A stretch of 64,000 nucleotides of DNA from Candidatus Binatia bacterium (GTDB lineage Bacteria; Desulfobacterota; Binatia; UBA12015). The notes beneath the pieces are model-generated. The model was not told the origin of the DNA, did not search any database, and saw nothing but the letters and a program-made list of their open reading frames with translations. The position numbers and the translations under genes are program-made. How positions within the stretch are numbered: the first letter of the stretch is position 1; the number at the start of each line of letters is the position of its first letter. The DNA lies in assembly GCA_029248525.1 (NCBI GenBank), contig JAQWJE010000008.1, positions 62,001 to 126,000 of the forward strand. Direction: 5' to 3'. Positions 2,644 to 13,862 of the stretch are shown here, in pieces.

Positions 2644-3876
2644 TCAACTCGAGGCTTGAACGGTCGGCCGTCGGAAGTGCGCGCCATCCATCAGGGGAAG
2701 GGGGCGGTCGAGGCCATAGCGCCTCGCGCTGGATTGGAAGAGGGCGTCGAGTTGGGCAAGATAGGCGGCTGAAACGTTGTGATCGCCGGTGGACTCGCCG
2801 CTGGGCGATTCCGCGGATCGCGAACTGTTTTGCCGGCCGTAGTCGATTTTCTTCTGCATCATCGGTCGATCTGTCTGGATCCAGTTCCAGAACGCATTGT
2901 CTGTATCGTGCGGAAGTCCCCCGAGGTTCCAGGCAGCGCTGCGCGCACCCGCCTGCGCGGCCGCCCCGAGGATGGCAGGAATCTCCGAGTCGTTCAGACC
3001 CGGGAGGATCGGGGCGGCCACAACGCTGGTGGGGATCCCAGCGTCGGCGAGTCTTCGGATGGCAGCCAGCCGGGCGCTCGGCTGCGTATGGCCCGGCTCG
3101 AGCCGTTCGGCGAGTTCGTCATCGAGAGTCGTCAAGGAGAGGTGGACCTGAGCCGAGCGACGACGGGCGAGGCCGGCGAGCAGGTCGAGGTCGCGAAGGA
3201 CGAGGTCGGAAGTGGTATGAATGACAACCGGATTTCTGGCCGCAGCCAGGACTTCGAGACATCGCCGGGTGAGACGAAGCTGTCTCTCGATCGGCTGGTA
3301 GCAGTCGGAAGCTCCCGCAAGGGTGATCGGTGCGGACCGCCAGCGCCGGCTGGCGAGCGTTTCCTGGAGTAATTCCGGGCTGGCCGGGTTGACGACGACT
3401 CGTCTGGCGCGCCCGGGGGTGTTCGAGCGATCCGCAAAGGTTTCGGCTGATGTTGCGGACGACCTTCCCTTAGGGCGTTTGTCGGTCGTGGCGGCACCCG
3501 TGTGGGGGGGCTGTACGTCCTTGGCGCACCCGCTGTATGGCTGGAGCTGCCAGCCGCGGTCTCCGTAGAGTCCTGCATTCTCGGTCAGGATTTGTCGCGA
3601 TTGGGTGTAGAGATAATGAATCCGCGTGGCGACTTGCCGGCCTGCCTGAAGGCGATGCTGACGGCCGGTCACGGATCCGTCGGTCACGGATCCGCCGGTC
3701 ATCGACGCGCCGTCGGCCGATCGGTCGGCCGATCGGTCGACCGATCCGTCGACCGATCCGTCGACCGATCTGTCGCCCGATCTGTCGACCGATCCGTCGA
3801 CGAGGTTTGGAGTTTGCGCGGAAATATTCGGTATCCGCTGTGAGGGCGCGCCGTGGAATTCCTGGTAGCTGTCCAT
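2644..3876 (-). CDS. Radical-SAM-like protein (SplB/PA0069-like) lacking the CX3CX2C cluster motif
   Basis: The C-terminal two thirds follow the Rv2578c/PA0069-type radical SAM family closely: a YQPIERQLRLTRRCLEVL segment, LRDLDLLAGLA, LSLTTLDDELAERLEP and GIPTSVVAAPILPGLND. The cluster loop is where the family has CX3CX2C inside PYRGCxHxCxYC. Here it reads PYSGCAKDVQPPH: C117 is kept, but the next two cluster positions are Val121 and Pro124. No alternative frame restores the cysteines. The N-terminal part contains Val-Asp-Gly/Arg-Ser tetrapeptide repeats (about residues 26-70) encoded by a 12-bp tandem repeat. The protein therefore cannot bind a normal 4Fe-4S/SAM centre and is either a pseudoenzyme or a decaying gene that has kept its frame. 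The frame is open over 410 codons. Confidence 0.7.
   Translation of the reverse strand: MDSYQEFHGAPSQRIPNISAQTPNLVDGSVDRSGDRSVDGSVDGSVDRSADRSADGASMTGGSVTDGSVTGRQHRLQAGRQVATRIHYLYTQSRQILTENAGLYGDRGWQLQPYSGCAKDVQPPHTGAATTDKRPKGRSSATSAETFADRSNTPGRARRVVVNPASPELLQETLASRRWRSAPITLAGASDCYQPIERQLRLTRRCLEVLAAARNPVVIHTTSDLVLRDLDLLAGLARRRSAQVHLSLTTLDDELAERLEPGHTQPSARLAAIRRLADAGIPTSVVAAPILPGLNDSEIPAILGAAAQAGARSAAWNLGGLPHDTDNAFWNWIQTDRPMMQKKIDYGRQNSSRSAESPSGESTGDHNVSAAYLAQLDALFQSSARRYGLDRPLPLMDGAHFRRPTVQASS
3667..3801. repeat. Tandem repeat array: two 15-bp units and seven 12-bp units
   Basis: Two copies of ggtcacggatccg(t/c)c lie at 3667-3681 and 3682-3696. After a short link, seven near-identical 12-bp units (consensus cgatcCgtcgac) run from 3718 to 3801 with changes at only a few positions. 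Both unit lengths are multiples of three. On the minus strand the 12-bp unit encodes Val-Asp-Gly/Arg-Ser, inside the radical-SAM-like gene. The unit contains overlapping palindromes (gtcgac, cgatcg), so it reads similarly on both strands. It looks like slippage expansion within a coding region. Confidence 0.9.
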
Positions 3877-4005: not shown

Positions 4006-5007
4006 ATGAAGGAAAAGCTTGGAGTTGTCCCGTTCTGGCAGGGCTATGACCGCAAGGAAGTCCTGAAAATCGCTCGGATCGCCGAAGACCTCGGTTACGA
4101 ATCCATCTGGATTCCGGAGGCCTGGGGTTACGAGCAATTTCAGTTGCTCACCGAAATCGCGAAGGAAACGACGCGGATCAAGCTCGCGACCGGCATTGCG
4201 AATGTTTTCAGCCGGTCGGCGGGTCTATTAGCCATGAGCACCGCGACTCTGGATGAAATTTCCGAAGGGCGCGTCATTCTCGGACTGGGCACCAGCGGCA
4301 AGAACGTCGTCGAGAATTTTCATGGAACGCCCTATCGCAAACCTCTGACCCGGCTGCGCGAAACGATCGGGATCTGCAAGACTCTCTGGCGCGGCGAGAG
4401 ACTTACGCCGGAGCAAAGCACGCTTGCCGAATTACGGCATTTCAAGTTGGCGATGACGCCCGTGCGCGCGGATATTCCGATCTATGTGGCCTCCCTGCAG
4501 CCCAAGGCGGTACGCGAACTGGGGCGCATTGCAGATGGATGGGTGCCGACTTTCTGGCCCTACGAGCATTTTAATGAAGGTTTGGAATGGATCGCCGAGG
4601 GCGCAAGGGACGCGGGCCGCGACCCCTCCGAGATTGAACTCGCACCGTTCCTCGGGGTTGTGCCGATCGAGGATGTCGACTTCGCCCGCAGCGCTCTCAA
4701 GCCGATGATCTCGTTCTATATCGGCGGCATGGGGACCTACTACCACGATATGTTCTGCCGATTCGGCTTCACCGAAAACGCCGATCTGGTGCGCGACCTT
4801 TATGTTGCGGGCAACAAGCAGGAGTCCATCGCAGCTGTCAGCGATGATCTCGTCGATGCGATTGCGATCTGCGGCTCGCCCGAGCACTGCCGCGAGCGTC
4901 TCGGCGAGTGGCGTGCGAACGGCATGGGTCATGGATTGGTCGGGCTGAGCCCGGGCGCGACGGCGGATTCTGTCGAGTTCATTCTCAAGGCCGTAGCGCC
5001 GGCCTGA
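4006..5007 (+). CDS. LLM-class (luciferase-like, F420-type) oxidoreductase
   Basis: A 333-residue TIM-barrel flavin/F420-type oxidoreductase of the luciferase-like monooxygenase superfamily. The N-terminus has the LGVVPFWQGYD...A.AEDLGYESIWIPEAWGYE pattern. LATGIANVFSRSAGLLAMSTATLDE and GRVILGLGTSG follow, and then IYVASLQPKAVRELGRIADGW, the usual substrate/cofactor pocket segments of F420-dependent LLM proteins. The ATG start leaves no strong Shine-Dalgarno, but the first strand begins immediately after it, so it is likely right. It is monocistronic: the upstream gene is divergent and a hairpin follows. The substrate is unknown. With the Ddn-like gene at 10606 it suggests the organism makes F420, although FMN use cannot be excluded. 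Confidence 0.88.
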   Translation: MKEKLGVVPFWQGYDRKEVLKIARIAEDLGYESIWIPEAWGYEQFQLLTEIAKETTRIKLATGIANVFSRSAGLLAMSTATLDEISEGRVILGLGTSGKNVVENFHGTPYRKPLTRLRETIGICKTLWRGERLTPEQSTLAELRHFKLAMTPVRADIPIYVASLQPKAVRELGRIADGWVPTFWPYEHFNEGLEWIAEGARDAGRDPSEIELAPFLGVVPIEDVDFARSALKPMISFYIGGMGTYYHDMFCRFGFTENADLVRDLYVAGNKQESIAAVSDDLVDAIAICGSPEHCRERLGEWRANGMGHGLVGLSPGATADSVEFILKAVAPA

Positions 5008-5821: not shown

Positions 5822-5979
5822 TCTTCCGCAACGATCAGCCGAAGATAGGAAAAGAGGCAGCCGGGCGCTGCCGGCACTTGCGATGAGACCTTTCGACCTA
5901 GACAAAGAGATCCCATGTTCCCTTTCCGGGAGGTCCCGTGGATGCCTGCGGGACGGTGCCCCGGCTTTCAGGAGTAAAA

Positions 5980-7311
5980 ATGGATCTCCCTCGTTTTGAT
6001 CAACCGCCAGCCGTCGTGCTGGGACTCGGACAAAATGGCATGGCCACGTGCCGCGCGCTCGGCCGCGTCGGCGTGCCCGTGATCGCGATCGACTCGGATC
6101 TCGAGCAACCGGGAGCGCAAACCCGCTATGCGACCAAGATCCATTGCCCGGATTTCCAGAAGGGTGGGCCGGGTCTGGTCGCGACGCTGATTGAAATTGG
6201 CGAAGAATTGGCCAGGCAGGGCCAGAAGGGAGTGCTGCTTCCCAGCGGAGACTTGAATGTCCAGATCATCTCTGAAGAACGTGAGGCACTCGATCCATAT
6301 TTTCACTATCGCTTGCCCGAGAAGGAAGTCGCCCGACTCTTTCTGGACAAGAAGTCCTTCTACAAGATCGCCATGGAGCGAGATTTTCCGCTCGCGCGTA
6401 CGTACTTCACGGACGAAGACCACGATATCGAGAAGATTCTCGAAGAGCTCTCCTATCCCGCGCTGATCAAGCCCTTTCAGCCCAATGCGGCCTGGCGCGA
6501 GACCTTTGATACGCGACTTTTCCTCGCGGATTCGGCGGAAATGTTGCGCAAGCTCTATGACCTGACCTACCCGGTTCACCAGGATCTGATCATCCAGGAG
6601 TATATGCCCGGGGACGATAGCCAGGTGATGTGGGGTGTGACCTATCTCGACGCAAACCAGAATCCTCTGGCGGTCTGGACGGGCCGGAAGTTGCGGATGT
6701 ATCCCCGCGGTTTCGGGACCGCGACCCTCGCGGAAAGCCGCCGCGACTCCTGGTTGGCGGAAGAGACCGTACGCATTCTCAAGGACATCGGCCACGTTGG
6801 CTATGGTGTCGTCGAATTCAAGAAAGACCAACGTGACGGTTGCTTCAAGATCACCGAACCGACCGGCGGGCGCACCTGGTTCCCGCATTCGGTGGTGACG
6901 GCATCCGGAATTAATTTGCCGCATATCTGGTACCGTGAGGTCCTCGGAGAATCGACTGAGCCGCAGACCGAATTTCAGGAAGGTCTGAAATGGATTCACG
7001 AAGAGCGCGACCTCAAGACGGTGATGCTCTATTTTCTGCCGGAAAAGAGACTGACGTGGTGGACCTGGTTGCAGTCGTACCGAGGTCGGCGCACCTATGC
7101 CTATTCGGCCTGGGACGATCCGGGCCCGATTCTGAACTCGGTCGGACGGATTTTGCAGGCCGGCGTGAATCGGTTCCAGCGCCTGCTCAAGCGTGGTGGT
7201 GACTCCGAGGCTGTTCGTGTGGAGAAGAGCCGACCGCGCGCCATGGATGAGGTTCTGCTCGCCGCGGACCCGACGGTTGGTCGCGGCATTCGGAAGGTCT
7301 CGGTGGATTAA
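5980..7311 (+). CDS. ATP-grasp carboxylate-amine ligase-like enzyme, first gene of the ComA operon
   Basis: A 443-residue ATP-grasp protein. It opens with a nucleotide-fold preATP-grasp segment (VVLGLGQNGMATCRALGR). A lysine-rich ATP-binding region follows (LFLDKKSFYKIA, YPALIKPFQP), then IIQEYMPGDDSQV and the metal-binding C-terminal part VGYGVVEFKKD...FKITEPTGGRTW. This is the carboxylate-amine ligase type that activates a carboxylate as acyl phosphate and joins it to an amine. The ATG at 5980 has a good AGGAG at 5970-5974, whereas an earlier in-frame start at 5938 does not. The stop overlaps the next start by one base (TAATG), so the lyase is translationally coupled. With the lyase and ComA downstream, the likely substrate is a sulfonated or related acid, but that is inference. 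Confidence 0.85.
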   Translation: MDLPRFDQPPAVVLGLGQNGMATCRALGRVGVPVIAIDSDLEQPGAQTRYATKIHCPDFQKGGPGLVATLIEIGEELARQGQKGVLLPSGDLNVQIISEEREALDPYFHYRLPEKEVARLFLDKKSFYKIAMERDFPLARTYFTDEDHDIEKILEELSYPALIKPFQPNAAWRETFDTRLFLADSAEMLRKLYDLTYPVHQDLIIQEYMPGDDSQVMWGVTYLDANQNPLAVWTGRKLRMYPRGFGTATLAESRRDSWLAEETVRILKDIGHVGYGVVEFKKDQRDGCFKITEPTGGRTWFPHSVVTASGINLPHIWYREVLGESTEPQTEFQEGLKWIHEERDLKTVMLYFLPEKRLTWWTWLQSYRGRRTYAYSAWDDPGPILNSVGRILQAGVNRFQRLLKRGGDSEAVRVEKSRPRAMDEVLLAADPTVGRGIRKVSVD

Positions 7312-8831
7312 TGGCTTCCACAAAGGGGCAAGGCGAAGGCGGTCGGTTGCGCGAAGGTCCGGCCCCGGAATTGCGCGAAGCGGCCTACGGACTCGAAATT
7401 GCGGACGCTCCGATTCTGCACAAGGGATGCAGCCTCGCCGACCTCGCCCACATTTTGATGATGCTCGAGGTTGGCGTCGTTCCCGCGGAGGCAGGCCAAC
7501 GCTTGCTGCGGCAGCTGTTGGAACTGCACGAGATTCCGGTGGAGGAATTTCCGCTCGATGACGCTCTCGAGGATGTCTACTCCAACCGCGAGGCGTGGGT
7601 ACGCGCGCGAGACGAAGAAGCAGCCGGTTGGTTGGGTGCGGGCCGTCCGCGCCGGGAACCGGCGACGATCGCCTACCGATTGGCCGTCCGCGATCGCCTG
7701 CTGGGCCTCTCCGAGCAAGTCCTCGGGATGCTGGACGCACTGGTCTCTCAGGCACGCGAGCACGTCCATACCGTGATGCCGGATTACACGTATCTGCAAC
7801 CGGCGACGCCGAGCAGCCTCGCGCACTACCTCCTTGCTTTTGCCTACCCGGCGCTCCGCGATCTCGAGCGCCTCGAGCAGGCCTACCGCCGCACGGATCA
7901 GTGCCCGGGGGGCATCGGGAATATCAATGGAACTCGCCTGCCCGTGGATCGGGAGCGTCTAGCCGATTTATTGGGTTTCGCCGAGCCGATCCGAAACACC
8001 CGTGACGCCATGTGGCAGGTTGACCAGCCGCTTGAGGTGATGGCCGATTTGATGGCGGTCTTCCTCCATCTCGACCGTCTCGCCGAGGATTTGCAGATCT
8101 GGAATACCAAGGAATTCGGGCTGGTAGAGCTGGCGGATCGCCACGCGCGCATCAGTTTGATCATGCCGCAGAAAAAAAACCCTTACGCGCTGGCCTTCGT
8201 TCGTGGCATTTCTGGCACCATGCTCGGCAAAATGGTTTCCATGGCTGCGGTCGGTAAAAGCCCCTCGGCGCAAATGGATAATCGGATCTTCGCCATCGGT
8301 GAGGTTCCGCGATCGTTGGACGCCGGCATTCGGACGGCAAAGCTCCTCGCGGAGGTGGTTCGCGGATTGTCTTTCGACACCGAACTCATGCGCGAGCGCG
8401 CGAGCGAGGGCTTTATTCACGCAACGGATCTCGCCGAGACCATCATGCAGGAAGAAGGCGCCACCTACCGTCAGGCACATCGTCTGGTCGGGCTGGCTGT
8501 TCGGGAAGCTCTGGCAGCGGACCCTGGCGCCAGAGATGTGCCGCGGGAAATTCTCGCCAACGCGGCCCGGGAGGTTCTCGGCCGACCTCTGCAGCTGACT
8601 GCCGACAGGCTCGAGGCGCTCGCGAATCCGGAAGAAGTGGTCCAGACCCGAACGGGAACGGGCGGTGCAGCCGGCGCGGCCGTCGAGGCGATGCTGGAGG
8701 AGTGCAGCCAGCGGGCCTTGGCGCATCAGCAATTCTGTAACCGCGAGCGGCAACGCATTGCCGATGGTGAAGCTGGACTGCTGGCGCAAGCGCGAAAGCG
8801 GGCGGCTACCAACTCCGCCCAAGTTGAATGA
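7311..8831 (+). CDS. Argininosuccinate-lyase-like enzyme (aspartase/fumarase superfamily)
   Basis: A 506-residue member of the aspartase/fumarase superfamily. The signature loop reads ISLIMPQKKNP, keeping the catalytic-serine position and KKN. Other argininosuccinate-lyase-like segments are DALEDVYSNRE, LPVDRERLADLLGF and FIHATDLAE. It departs from true ArgH at the HAQPT motif, which here is YLQPATPSS, and at EDVH, which is EDVY, so two conserved histidines are missing. It is unlikely to be ArgH. Superfamily members catalyse elimination or addition at succinyl-like substrates. In Xanthobacter CoM synthesis an aspartase/fumarase-family enzyme removes phosphate from the ComA product. The start overlaps the stop of the ATP-grasp gene, and comA begins 20 bases after its stop. 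Confidence 0.85.
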   Translation: MASTKGQGEGGRLREGPAPELREAAYGLEIADAPILHKGCSLADLAHILMMLEVGVVPAEAGQRLLRQLLELHEIPVEEFPLDDALEDVYSNREAWVRARDEEAAGWLGAGRPRREPATIAYRLAVRDRLLGLSEQVLGMLDALVSQAREHVHTVMPDYTYLQPATPSSLAHYLLAFAYPALRDLERLEQAYRRTDQCPGGIGNINGTRLPVDRERLADLLGFAEPIRNTRDAMWQVDQPLEVMADLMAVFLHLDRLAEDLQIWNTKEFGLVELADRHARISLIMPQKKNPYALAFVRGISGTMLGKMVSMAAVGKSPSAQMDNRIFAIGEVPRSLDAGIRTAKLLAEVVRGLSFDTELMRERASEGFIHATDLAETIMQEEGATYRQAHRLVGLAVREALAADPGARDVPREILANAAREVLGRPLQLTADRLEALANPEEVVQTRTGTGGAAGAAVEAMLEECSQRALAHQQFCNRERQRIADGEAGLLAQARKRAATNSAQVE

Positions 8832-8851
8832 CCTCGATTGGAGAATAGACC

Positions 8852-9712
8852 ATGATGGATTTTTTCTCACTTCCCTCCCGCAGTCCCAAGCCACGCGATG
8901 AAGGCGTCACGCATGTGATCGACAAGGGGCTGGGTCTGGCTCAGGTCGAGGATATGCTCGCCACTTGTTCCAACTATATCGATATCGTCAAGTTGGGTTG
9001 GGGTACGGGCTACGTCACCCAGAACCTCGCCGAGAAGGTCGAACTCTATCATAAGGCTGATATCCCGGTTTGTTTCGGCGGTACGCTGGCCGAGGTGGCG
9101 ATCCTGCAGGGTAAATTGGACGAATTTCGAGATTTGGCACTCTCGCTCGGTTTGTCCCACGTCGAGATCTCCAACGGCGTGATCGATATGTCCATGAAGG
9201 AAAAGGCCGGCTATATCCGCGAGCTTTCGAAGGACTTCGTGGTCCTGACCGAAGTGGGCAGCAAGGATTCGGAAAAGATCATCCCGCCGTTTCGCTGGGT
9301 CGACATGATTCAGGCCGATCTCGACGCAGGAGCCTGGAAGGTCATCTGCGAAGCTCGAGAGAGCGGAACGGTAGGGCTTTATTTCGGCTCGGGCGAGGCC
9401 CGTTCAGGACTCATCGACGAGATTTGCACAAAGATCGATCACGTGGACCTGATTTTCGAAACGCCTCAGAAGGTTCAGCAAATGTACATGGTCAAGAAGC
9501 TTGGTTCCGAGGTGAACCTCGGTAATATCGCGACCACGGAGGTGATTCCGCTCGAAACGCTCCGACTCGGACTGCGCGGGGATACAATGGCTGATTTTCA
9601 CGATGTCGACATCTGGAACAAGCGTCGCGATGCCGAGTTGGCGGCCGAGATCCCGACGCCCGAGCGTCGCGAGCGAAAATCGCGCAAGCCCAAGCTGACA
9701 CGAATTCGCTGA
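8852..9712 (+). CDS. comA: Phosphosulfolactate synthase (ComA family)
   Basis: ComA adds sulfite to phosphoenolpyruvate to give (R)-2-phospho-3-sulfolactate, the first step of PEP-derived coenzyme M synthesis and of sulfolactate formation. The 286-residue protein follows the family along its length: HVIDKGLG (K25), YIDIVKLGWGT, CFGGTLAEVA, LSHVEISNGVIDMS, VVLTEVGSKD, ADLDAGAW, CEARESG, IFETPQKVQQ and LGLRGDT. A basic tail of about 30 residues (ERRERKSRKPK) is extra. ATG-ATG at the start leaves a 3-base uncertainty, and GGAG lies upstream. No ComB, ComC or epoxyalkane:CoM transferase gene is nearby, so the end product is open. Confidence 0.93.
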   Translation: MMDFFSLPSRSPKPRDEGVTHVIDKGLGLAQVEDMLATCSNYIDIVKLGWGTGYVTQNLAEKVELYHKADIPVCFGGTLAEVAILQGKLDEFRDLALSLGLSHVEISNGVIDMSMKEKAGYIRELSKDFVVLTEVGSKDSEKIIPPFRWVDMIQADLDAGAWKVICEARESGTVGLYFGSGEARSGLIDEICTKIDHVDLIFETPQKVQQMYMVKKLGSEVNLGNIATTEVIPLETLRLGLRGDTMADFHDVDIWNKRRDAELAAEIPTPERRERKSRKPKLTRIR

Positions 9713-10605: not shown

Positions 10606-10968
10606 TTGGATCTCGAGAAAATGGAACGCGTGAAGGAAGTTCGGATGACCGCTCCGGGTCGAAAGAGCGGCAAGCCGAGATCGGTGACGATCTGGTTTGT
10701 CCGCGAGGATCAATCGATCGGCCTTGGCACGATGGATGATACCCGGGGTTGGGTGCAAAATGCTCTCGCCGCCGACGAGGTCGAGTTGGAGATCGATGCT
10801 TGCCGTATGCGAGGGAAGATCCGAGTCGTCGAGGACCCGGAGGTGCACCGGCGTTTGCGCAAGGCGTTCGCGAGAAAGTATTTGCCAGCGAGGTTGCTCT
10901 CGTTCGTCGGTGTCGGCCAGCGAACCACTTTCCTCGTTGAGAACCTCGAAGAGTTGGAGGCGGTTTGA
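10606..10968 (+). CDS. Ddn-like deazaflavin-dependent nitroreductase family protein (short)
   Basis: 120 residues. VRMTAPGRKSGKPRSVTIWFV and TRGWVQN resemble the TTGRKSGxPR and AWYxNL motifs of the deazaflavin (F420)-dependent nitroreductase/split-barrel family. The protein is shorter than typical members (about 140-150 residues) because the N-terminal helix is reduced. The TTG start is supported by a strong GGGAGGG about eight bases upstream. The substrate is unknown. It could equally be a flavin or haem split-barrel protein. Confidence 0.7.
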   Translation: MDLEKMERVKEVRMTAPGRKSGKPRSVTIWFVREDQSIGLGTMDDTRGWVQNALAADEVELEIDACRMRGKIRVVEDPEVHRRLRKAFARKYLPARLLSFVGVGQRTTFLVENLEELEAV

Positions 10969-11017: not shown

Positions 11018-11641
11018 TTGAGTGGTCTCGGCCGCATCCTTCTGGTTCGTCATGGCGAGAGCACGGGCAACGTCGAACGCGAATTTTCCCGCGACCCCGA
11101 CATCGATCTGACGGAGCGGGGTGTCGAGCAGGCCTGCGCAACCGGTCGTCATCTTGCGCGCGAGTTTTCGCCGACCCGGATTGTCGCGAGTCCTTATTTT
11201 CGCGCACGTCGCACAGCCGCCCTGATCGGAGACGCACTCTCTGGGGCCTTCGACATTCACATCGAAGAAGATCTGCGGGAGCGTTCGATAGGCGCCTTGG
11301 CGGGCCAACCCTATGGTGCGATGGCGGCTCACCCGGATTACGAGCCCGAGCGCTACTGGGCGTGGCGGCCGCCGCAGGGCGAATCGCTCGAGGACGTGCA
11401 GGTCCGCGCCGGCGCTGTCCTGCAGAGGGTTGCGGCAGCTTATCCGGGGGAGGACGTGGTGCTGGTCAGCCACGGAGGCACCATGATGGCGCTTTGTGCC
11501 CATGTGGAAGGGAGCTTCGAGCGCCCGCGGGTAGCCGGCAACTGCGAAGTTGTGGTGGTCGAGCACTCGGGTGGTCGTGACTTGCGCCTGGTCGCGGCGG
11601 CGGGACCCTCGGCTGCCGGGACTGAAGAAACAGGCGGCTGA
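11018..11641 (+). CDS. Histidine phosphatase (phosphoglycerate mutase-like) family protein
   Basis: 207 residues with the branch-defining RHGES motif at the N-terminus (ILLVRHGESTGN), the second arginine/glutamate region (IVASPYFRARRTA, LRERSIGALAG) and the distal catalytic histidine in LVSHGGTM. This is the catalytic core of cofactor-independent-regulation phosphatases such as GpmB/CobC-like proteins. The start is TTG at 11018 with an AAAGAG upstream. An extra disordered Gly/Ala/Ser tail is present. The substrate cannot be read from sequence. It may be co-transcribed with the Ddn-like gene 49 bases upstream. Confidence 0.88.
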   Translation: MSGLGRILLVRHGESTGNVEREFSRDPDIDLTERGVEQACATGRHLAREFSPTRIVASPYFRARRTAALIGDALSGAFDIHIEEDLRERSIGALAGQPYGAMAAHPDYEPERYWAWRPPQGESLEDVQVRAGAVLQRVAAAYPGEDVVLVSHGGTMMALCAHVEGSFERPRVAGNCEVVVVEHSGGRDLRLVAAAGPSAAGTEETGG

Positions 11642-12506: not shown

Positions 12507-12727
12507 AGCCCCGATTTACTCCTGAGTGCGCCCTGGAACCAACGAAAATGCACGAATTCGGCTCCATGAGCCCCGGGGCATGGATTCTCGGGCCTCCAGT
12601 CAGTAAAGAAATGGAGCGCGGATTCTTGAGGGGGGGCTGGCTTCCCTGAAAATAGGCTCCTCGAAGGAGTTTTTTCAGATGGTCGAAGCAGATTTCGGAG
12701 GTTGTATGCGGATGTCGGAGATGAATC

Positions 12728-12967
12728 TTGGCTAAATCGCGGCTTACATTCCAGAAGCGGCAGAAGGAACTTGCGCGAATTCGGAAGCGTGAGGACAAGA
12801 AAAAGCGGATGGCCGAGCGGCGTCCGGAACCCGGGGAAGAGGGCGAGGAGCGGGCCAAGGGCCCACAGATCGCCAGCACCGAGGACCTGGTTGGTCTCGG
12901 GCTTGCCGAACCGGAAGAAGTCGAAACAGAGGAAGAAGACAGCCCGGAAGGCTCGGATCGGGGCTGA
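12728..12967 (+). CDS. Small highly charged protein of unknown function
   Basis: 79 residues. The first half is strongly basic and probably a single helix (LTFQKRQKELARIRKRED). The second half is acidic (EEVETEEEDSPEGSD). The TFQKRQKELAR opening is a pattern I associate with small hypothetical proteins in deltaproteobacterial genomes. It starts with TTG, and a GAGATGAATC stretch precedes it. The overlapping longer frame in another phase belongs to the downstream dioxygenase and is not used there. It may bind nucleic acid, but nothing proves it. Confidence 0.6.
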   Translation: MAKSRLTFQKRQKELARIRKREDKKKRMAERRPEPGEEGEERAKGPQIASTEDLVGLGLAEPEEVETEEEDSPEGSDRG

Positions 12968-12989
12968 CGGCACCGCGTCGGGCAGGTCC

Positions 12990-13862
12990 ATGAGCGCCGA
13001 GAATTCCGATATCACGATTGCCCCTCGCCCGGATGGGTTCGGAGCGGTGGTGCGCGGCGTGAATCTCGGGGCGGAGCTCTCGGATCAGGACGTGCGCCGA
13101 ATCCGTCAGGCCTGGGCAGAGCATGGAGTGCTGGTCTTCCCGGACCAGCCCCTCGACCATGCGGGGTTGGAGCGCTTCAGCAATTCGATCGGGCCCTACG
13201 GTCATGACCCGTATCTGGAGGCGTTGGGCGATCATCCTCATATTGTTGAACTCGCGCGCGAACCTGACGAGAAGTCCTACGTGTTCGGTGCCGCGTGGCA
13301 CTCGGACTGGAGCTTTCAGGCTGCGCCGCCTTCGGCCACCATTCTGCACGCCAAGACAGTGCCGCCGGTTGGCGGTGACACGCTCTTTGCGGATACCGCG
13401 GCAGCATTTGATGCATTGACGCCGGAGCTGCAGCAGCGCTTGCAGGGATTGCATGTCGTCCATTCCGCGGGGGCCGCGTACGGACCGCGGGGTATTCTTC
13501 AGACCGATCCGCATCCGAGTACGACCAAAATTGTGATTTCGCCGGAGGCCGAGGCGCGCGAGGTTCACCCGCTGCTGCGTCGGCATCCCGAGAGCGGTCG
13601 CACCGCGTTATTTGTCAACCCGGTCTACGCGGTCGCCATCGAGGGGCTTTCTCCCGAAGAGAGTCGGGCTTTGCTGGGAGAGTTGTACCTGCATCAGGTG
13701 CAGGAACAATTTATCTATCGACATCGATGGCAACCCGACATGCTCATCATGTGGGACAACCGAAGAACGATGCATCAGGCCGAGGGTGGCTATGAGGGGC
13801 ATCGCCGGGTGATGCATCGGACGACGATCGCCGGCGAAAAACCGCTCGCGGTGCACGACTGA
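12990..13862 (+). CDS. TauD/TfdA-family Fe(II)/2-oxoglutarate dioxygenase
   Basis: 290 residues. Iron and oxoglutarate ligands of the TauD family are visible: WHSDWSFQ (HxD), a threonine-rich strand DTLFADTAAAFDAL, and the distal histidine in DNRRTMHQA followed by RVMHRTTI, with the oxoglutarate-binding arginine. The ATG at 12990 follows GGCAGG and is preferred over the long upstream extension that runs through the small charged gene. Family substrates include taurine, 2,4-D and alkyl sulfates. The actual substrate is unknown. It starts the short block yqeY-enoyl-CoA hydratase. Confidence 0.88.
   Translation: MSAENSDITIAPRPDGFGAVVRGVNLGAELSDQDVRRIRQAWAEHGVLVFPDQPLDHAGLERFSNSIGPYGHDPYLEALGDHPHIVELAREPDEKSYVFGAAWHSDWSFQAAPPSATILHAKTVPPVGGDTLFADTAAAFDALTPELQQRLQGLHVVHSAGAAYGPRGILQTDPHPSTTKIVISPEAEAREVHPLLRRHPESGRTALFVNPVYAVAIEGLSPEESRALLGELYLHQVQEQFIYRHRWQPDMLIMWDNRRTMHQAEGGYEGHRRVMHRTTIAGEKPLAVHD

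Follow-up and report, generated by a model that had tools for sequence, protein, structure and literature searches.

A conserved ATP-grasp, XcbC-type lyase and ComA cassette in Candidatus Binatia, with a possible role in attaching sulfonic acids to surface glycans

The stretch of DNA analysed here (the window, 64,000 nucleotides) comprises bases 62001–126000 of contig C8 of a Candidatus Binatia bacterium, the host, whose 4.27 Mb genome is 98.9% complete. It carries three adjacent genes predicted to encode an ATP-grasp ligase, a lyase of the aspartase/fumarase superfamily and the phosphosulfolactate synthase ComA. As the initial annotation described, they form a single operon-like unit, which can be read directly in the sequence: a TAATG motif holds both the stop codon of the ATP-grasp gene and the start codon of the lyase gene, base 7311 being shared in a 1-base overlap, and 20 bases separate the end of the lyase stop codon (8831) from the ComA start (8852). 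Genomes, loci and, within the host's class, families are labeled G, L and f below, the host falling in f1. The features of the cassette are as follows.

5970–5974, + strand: Shine-Dalgarno-like AGGAG upstream of the first ATG (5980), read in the sequence.
5980–7311, + strand: ATP-grasp ligase of 443 residues, predicted from fold match, residues and synteny to activate a sulfonated carboxylic acid and ligate it.
7311–8831, + strand: XcbC-type lyase of the aspartase/fumarase superfamily, 506 residues, predicted from the XcbC model, tree and residues to convert phosphosulfolactate into sulfoacrylate.
8852–9712, + strand: ComA, phosphosulfolactate synthase, 286 residues, assigned from PF02679, TIGR03849, the structures 1u83 and 1qwg and shared invariant columns.

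The product of the third gene matches PF02679 with 285 bits (curated cut-off 25.2), and its nearest solved structures are the phosphosulfolactate synthases 1u83 (E 1e-60) and, from an archaeon, 1qwg (E 6e-50). Invariant ComA columns are common to the window protein and the homologue encoded in the Xanthobacter coenzyme M (CoM) cluster. Against the archaeal equivalog model TIGR03849 the protein reaches 254.9 bits, below the cut-off of 280, and we therefore count it as a bacterial ComA-family protein and do not file it as the archaeal equivalog.

The lyase matches Lyase_1 (123 bits) and ASL_C2 in Pfam, and its predicted structure has a predicted local distance difference test (pLDDT) score of 85. 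It scores 522.5 bits against the NCBIfam XcbC model NF052535, which is 235 bits above its score with the argininosuccinate lyase (ArgH) model TIGR00838 (287.7 bits, just over the cut-off of 279.5), and 28 bits against the XcbD model. In a maximum-likelihood tree of 53 sequences, the window lyase lies within a 25-member XcbC clade with 100/100 support, which takes in the lyases encoded in the Xanthobacter, Nocardioides, Mycolicibacterium and Methylocystis clusters and in two CoM-type operons from f9, in the same class. The ArgH proteins of the same genomes form a separate clade (93/100), so that the comparison of XcbC with ArgH suggested in the initial annotation places the lyase outside ArgH. 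The CoM-pathway lyases do not make up a single group inside the XcbC clade, and the cassette lyases therefore lie among or beside the CoM-pathway enzymes.

A residue comparison between the 25 XcbC-clade members and 20 ArgH proteins reveals fixed differences, 25/25 versus 20/20, that cover catalytic and substrate-binding positions. Trp107, Arg115, Glu116, Tyr161, Arg231, Met234, Tyr292 and Asn324 are invariant throughout the former and absent from all of the latter. The initial annotation had noted a superfamily member without two ArgH histidines; both are indeed replaced in the window lyase (His91 by Tyr90, His162 by Tyr161), and the catalytic serine of the GSSxMP loop is gone as well (Ser284 by Leu283). 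Further replacements, in the numbering of the host's own ArgH, affect Ser29 (Glu), Asp33 (Ala), Asn116 (Arg), Tyr323 (Gln), Gln328 (Ile) and Lys331 (Ile), which we take to be argininosuccinate-binding positions, with roles assigned from delta-crystallin structures. The host encodes its own ArgH elsewhere in the genome (587 bits), and a true ArgH scoring at least 566 bits is present in 20 of the 21 genomes searched.

The first gene product matches nothing in Pfam at E≤1e-3 and gives weak hits to PRK12767. Its AlphaFold2 model, for which, as for the lyase, the alignments were built without plasmid-record sequences, has a mean pLDDT of 75, with a poorly predicted stretch of 100 residues at the C-terminus. 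The model superimposes on 2pn1 with Z 25.2 (root mean square deviation 2.9 over 287 aligned residues), and many matches to biotin carboxylases and glycinamide ribonucleotide synthetases follow at Z 22–24. Lys124, Lys164, Glu207, Glu279, Glu293 and Arg298, to which we assign ATP- and Mg-binding roles by analogy, are invariant in 11/11 homologues. The modeled fold thus points to an ATP-grasp ligase, although it does not fix the substrate. In sum, all three gene identities proposed in the initial annotation were borne out.

The cassette recurs in other genomes, where a search had been recommended. ComA was found in 12 of 13 f1 genomes in a first survey and in 36 of 148 genomes across the class. 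Wherever an f1 locus is long enough to show it, ATP-grasp, lyase and ComA follow one another in this order (identity ~63–79%), and the order reappears in f5 (G067, G066) and f8 (G057), with protein identities of ~53–79% across the three families; the linkage is therefore not due to chance. The interpretation offered in the initial annotation withstood both of the refutation checks that it had set, on placement of the lyase inside ArgH and on a lack of conserved gene order. Every complete cassette retains both the ATP-grasp gene and ComA. The ComA and lyase trees agree on the main groups, as, largely, does the ATP-grasp tree. The f5 proteins nest within the f1 clade of the lyase tree, whereas f5 ArgH groups with that of f11 and f15, which suggests that the cassette moved horizontally as a unit.

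We read the surroundings of related ComA genes through tblastn and Pfam matches, as open reading frame calling in GC-rich loci yielded false antisense frames; the loci fetched were the best 80 of about 580. In relatives the cassette has as neighbors genes for glycosyltransferases and flippases, for a PIG-L deacetylase, for a sugar aminotransferase, or for a fumarate-reductase-like flavoprotein. In G067 it adjoins GT4 glycosyltransferase, PIG-L deacetylase and MBOAT genes and a second ATP-grasp gene, with a flippase 6.5 kb away, and in G057 a GT4 gene precedes it and a DegT sugar aminotransferase follows. In f11 a glycosyltransferase and a flippase (PF13440) come first, and ATP-grasp, an FAD_binding_2 flavoprotein, the lyase and ComA follow in that order, the flavoprotein resembling fumarate reductase and L-aspartate oxidase. 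Other clusters carry different second steps: in G038, ComB (PF04029) comes after ComA, and then glycosyltransferase, ATP-grasp and flippase genes; in a Chloroflexi metagenome-assembled genome, ComA lies amid sugar genes, with a sulfopyruvate decarboxylase (TIGR03845, 182 bits, cut-off 148) and then an ATP-grasp-like gene behind it; and in f15 the ATP-grasp gene alone adjoins ComA, with no second-step enzyme.

The flippase lies 3.5–6.5 kb from ComA in f11, G067 and G038. The six genomes concerned hold 3–5 PF13440 genes each, and one would fall within 10 kb of ComA by chance in 1.0–1.6% of cases. Proximity in three of about seven evaluable lineages corresponds to p near 7e-5, a rough value, as the lineage count was made after inspection and treats the four f11 genomes as one.

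These data lead us to the following proposal. ComA would condense phosphoenolpyruvate (PEP) and sulfite into phosphosulfolactate, and the XcbC-type lyase would beta-eliminate the phosphate and leave sulfoacrylate, the sulfonate counterpart of fumarate; these two predicted steps are well supported by homology. The ATP-grasp enzyme would then use ATP to convert the carboxylate into an acyl phosphate and form an amide with an amine, most likely that of an amino sugar in an exported surface glycan. We infer the ligation and the amine, and draw the glycan acceptor from gene neighborhoods. The recurrence of ATP-grasp genes beside ComA with ComB, a flavoprotein, a decarboxylase or no second-step enzyme supports the conjugating role that the initial annotation had suggested for this enzyme. 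The f11 flavoprotein would probably first reduce sulfoacrylate to 3-sulfopropionate, a natural guess given its likeness to fumarate reductase; the host operon has no such gene. The activities assigned to the cassette are predictions from homology and genomic context. We consider the chances evenly balanced that the pathway as a whole operates as proposed, that is, that a ComA-derived sulfonic acid is made and linked as an amide, a surface-glycan amino sugar being the most likely acceptor. The probable acceptor and the reductase variant extend the initial annotation.

Candidate acceptor genes occur elsewhere in the host. Contig C49 carries a run of GT4, an NAD-dependent epimerase/dehydratase and DegT, in which the GT4 is the orthologue of that in the G067 cluster (43% identity) and the DegT is 66% identical to that in the G057 cluster, the next host paralogue reaching 38%. 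As GT4 and DegT flank the cassette in G057, genes contiguous there are split over two contigs in the host. The GT4 is also present in the other f1 genomes tested (42–48%).

Several observations weigh against this proposal. The window and the other f1 loci have no adjacent flippase or glycosyltransferase, so that the glycan link in f1 depends on GT4 and DegT in trans. No close match to the host DegT turned up in the other f1 genomes tested (best 39–41%), and the acceptor may vary among members or the DegT/GT4 pairing may be accidental. The f1 cassette has no associated reductase, and the acyl group there would be the reactive sulfoacrylate. Position 295 of the ATP-grasp protein, usually a Mg ligand, is Thr in f1 and Asn in the f11 and Priestia homologues. 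Finally, the lyase misses the NF052535 cut-off of 575 bits, for which reason we name it XcbC-type and not XcbC; relatives score 445–556 bits, the f9 CoM-type operon 628 and Xanthobacter 742.

A dedicated flavin reductase for the host was also considered and set aside: the host genome gave only matches of 28–32% identity within much longer frames (557 and 841 residues), and we conclude that it has no reductase of the f11 type.

A small soluble conjugate, such as a sulfoacryloyl- or sulfopropionyl-amino acid or peptide serving as osmolyte, thiol-like cofactor or natural product, with no glycan decoration, is the alternative that survives best, and we consider it unlikely yet realistic. ATP-grasp ligases often make peptides and amides, the f1 cassettes lack an adjacent glycan gene, the f15 pair of ATP-grasp and ComA has no obvious glycan genes nearby, and in Streptomyces an ATP-grasp and ArgH-like pair sits beside a cysteine-synthase-type enzyme, near a nonribosomal peptide synthetase. 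Decoration of a glycan is favored over this alternative by the orthologous cassettes within glycan clusters of f5 and f8, by the analogous one in f11 and by a flippase proximity above chance.

The cassette could instead belong to a CoM pathway whose later steps are unlinked or replaced, with the ATP-grasp protein as bystander or accessory. Apart from the position of the lyase in the XcbC clade, this would be consistent with two apparently complete CoM-type operons in f9, organized as ComA-XcbC-XcbD-XcbE.

L158:8369–14040 (G093): f9 CoM-type operon, in which XcbF is also seen.
L159:5132–9780 (G092): f9 CoM-type operon.

These operons, however, carry their later genes beside ComA and the lyase and have no ATP-grasp gene, which every complete cassette retains. 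The host has no XcbD above the cut-off (best 65.9 bits versus 600), its four matches to the XcbD model being its Lyase_1 genes, namely the window lyase, ArgH, one gene on C43 and one on C49. ComB (PF04029) is absent from the host genome; ComC and CoM-using enzymes were not searched for. From the lack of XcbD and ComB we conclude, in line with the initial annotation, that the product is probably not CoM, and we regard the CoM alternative as improbable.

The initial annotation had left open whether the lyase eliminates phosphate from the ComA product or catalyzes an addition. Elimination is favored because the lyase groups with XcbC. An addition of an amine or thiol onto sulfoacrylate, followed by ligation of the adduct by the ATP-grasp enzyme, is disfavored and quite improbable: the eliminations of the superfamily are reversible and the NCBIfam model for the related XcbD, named "3-sulfopropionylcysteine synthase", has it adding cysteine, but sulfoacrylate would then have to come from another enzyme, and the window lyase, at 522 bits for XcbC, is like that enzyme and not like XcbD. 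A role in arginine metabolism, or a generic ArgH-like lyase paired with the ligase, like other ATP-grasp/ArgH-like pairs, beside an incidental ComA, is very unlikely: the TIGR00838 cut-off is passed by a few bits, and against this stand the separate host ArgH, the placement of the lyase outside the ArgH clade, the replaced argininosuccinate-binding positions and the retention of ComA in every complete cassette.

Returning to amide linkage to a surface glycan, we advance more tentatively, and at somewhat less than an even chance, a broader and undescribed route in which a core of ComA and ATP-grasp decorates surface glycans with ComA-derived sulfonic acids through interchangeable second steps. 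These would be an XcbC-type lyase, a lyase with a fumarate-reductase-like flavoprotein, ComB or sulfopyruvate decarboxylase, and the groups placed on amino sugars would be sulfoacrylyl, 3-sulfopropionyl, sulfolactyl or related ones. Such a route would occur in the host's class, and Actinomycetota and Chloroflexota hold related ComA clusters. Its first two steps are of a known kind; the combination with ATP-grasp and the glycan setting are seemingly undescribed. A literature search on sulfonated glycans, on sulfoacrylate and on ComA in connection with polysaccharides brought up no such system, which is weak evidence as it mostly did not cover subscription papers.

If the proposal is correct, the first two steps of CoM synthesis feed another end product, and sulfonates derived from PEP and sulfite gain an outlet beyond CoM and spore sulfolactate, as acidic groups with a non-hydrolysable C–S bond on cell surfaces. 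It would also suggest a function for many genes of uncultured bacteria annotated as "argininosuccinate lyase" or "phosphosulfolactate synthase". The proposal is open to direct test with three purified enzymes.

Downstream of the cassette lies one further candidate member.

10606–10968, + strand: small protein resembling F420H2-dependent quinone reductases (PF04075, 24.6 bits, cut-off 22).

A homologue is encoded on the same strand within about 6 kb of ComA in L026, L031, L035 and L039 and not in L027, L030 and L034; we can only guess at an accessory role, possibly as an ene-reductase. Next comes a histidine-phosphatase-superfamily gene (11018–11641, ~1.3 kb after ComA), and members of this superfamily also lie closely 3' of ComA in five Actinomycetota loci (L056, L087, L104, L109 and L113); the product could be a phosphosulfolactate phosphatase, or the proximity a coincidence. 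About 3 kb downstream of ComA, a frame with a long upstream extension (12702–13862) encodes a TauD/TfdA-family dioxygenase (PF02668, 229 bits). Upstream of the cassette, an LLM oxidoreductase gene (4006–5007) was left out of the system since the other f1 loci have no similar gene. A radical-SAM gene on the minus strand (2644–3876) starts with 12-base repeats encoding DRSVDGSVDRS-like residues (3700–3843), which gives a low-complexity N-terminus.

ComA homologues also occur in other settings. In Actinomycetota, ComA adjoins a fumarate-reductase-like flavoprotein, class I fumarase subunits, a LysR regulator or 3'-phosphoadenosine 5'-phosphosulfate reductase (L057, L061, L062, L063, L081, L087, L097 and L110), often with polysaccharide genes near; a flavoprotein related to that of f11 directly precedes ComA in L057, L061, L063 and L081, and in L062 class I fumarase subunits lie in between. 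These Actinomycetota loci possibly represent another sulfopropionate or sulfolactate route. The Bacteroidota/Balneolota loci are L054, L055, L058, L060 and L064–L130, and many Bacteroidota have a ComA 50–59% identical to that of the window with no cassette genes nearby. G013 (f2; L041, L042) has 15 ComA-family matches (best ~170 bits, 27–28% identical to the window ComA), mixed with solute-binding protein, MmgE/PrpD, PGA_cap and FAD_binding_2 genes, and G139 has seven; these probably form a different, perhaps catabolic, branch of the family. On a Legionella lytica plasmid (L047:6850–9762), a 970-residue "phosphosulfolactate synthase" with ComA homology only in its last third lies between an aminotransferase gene and ComB.

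The cassette can be compared with four known systems. ArgH has the same fold and family as the window lyase, at ~30–35% identity, and differs from it in the catalytic and substrate-binding positions, in its separate clade and in being encoded separately in the host. On a Priestia megaterium plasmid, a cluster that also holds PIG-L, GT4 and exosporium genes encodes an ATP-grasp protein 31% identical to that of the window over 85% of the protein. It thus offers a PRK12767/CarB-like ATP-grasp enzyme in a surface-glycan cluster, with PIG-L and GT4 neighbors like those of G067, although, unlike the window, it has neither ComA nor lyase. The archaeal CoM and Bacillus sulfolactate routes have ComA in common with the window; there the phosphatase ComB removes the phosphate, whereas the lyase would do so in the host, which lacks ComB. 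The closest parallel is the bacterial CoM route, the reactions of whose first two steps are summarized in PMC8727900 and PMC11507031. In Xanthobacter autotrophicus Py2 it comprises XcbB1/XcbC1/XcbD1/XcbE1 (genes such as Xaut_5052–5055 and Xaut_4872–4875 on pXAUT01). The window lyase is only ~40–44% identical to the Xanthobacter lyases and scores below the XcbC cut-off, and the window has an ATP-grasp ligase in place of XcbD and no epoxide-degradation genes nearby; both nevertheless share a ComA homologue, a lyase of the XcbC clade and, presumably, the same two reactions.

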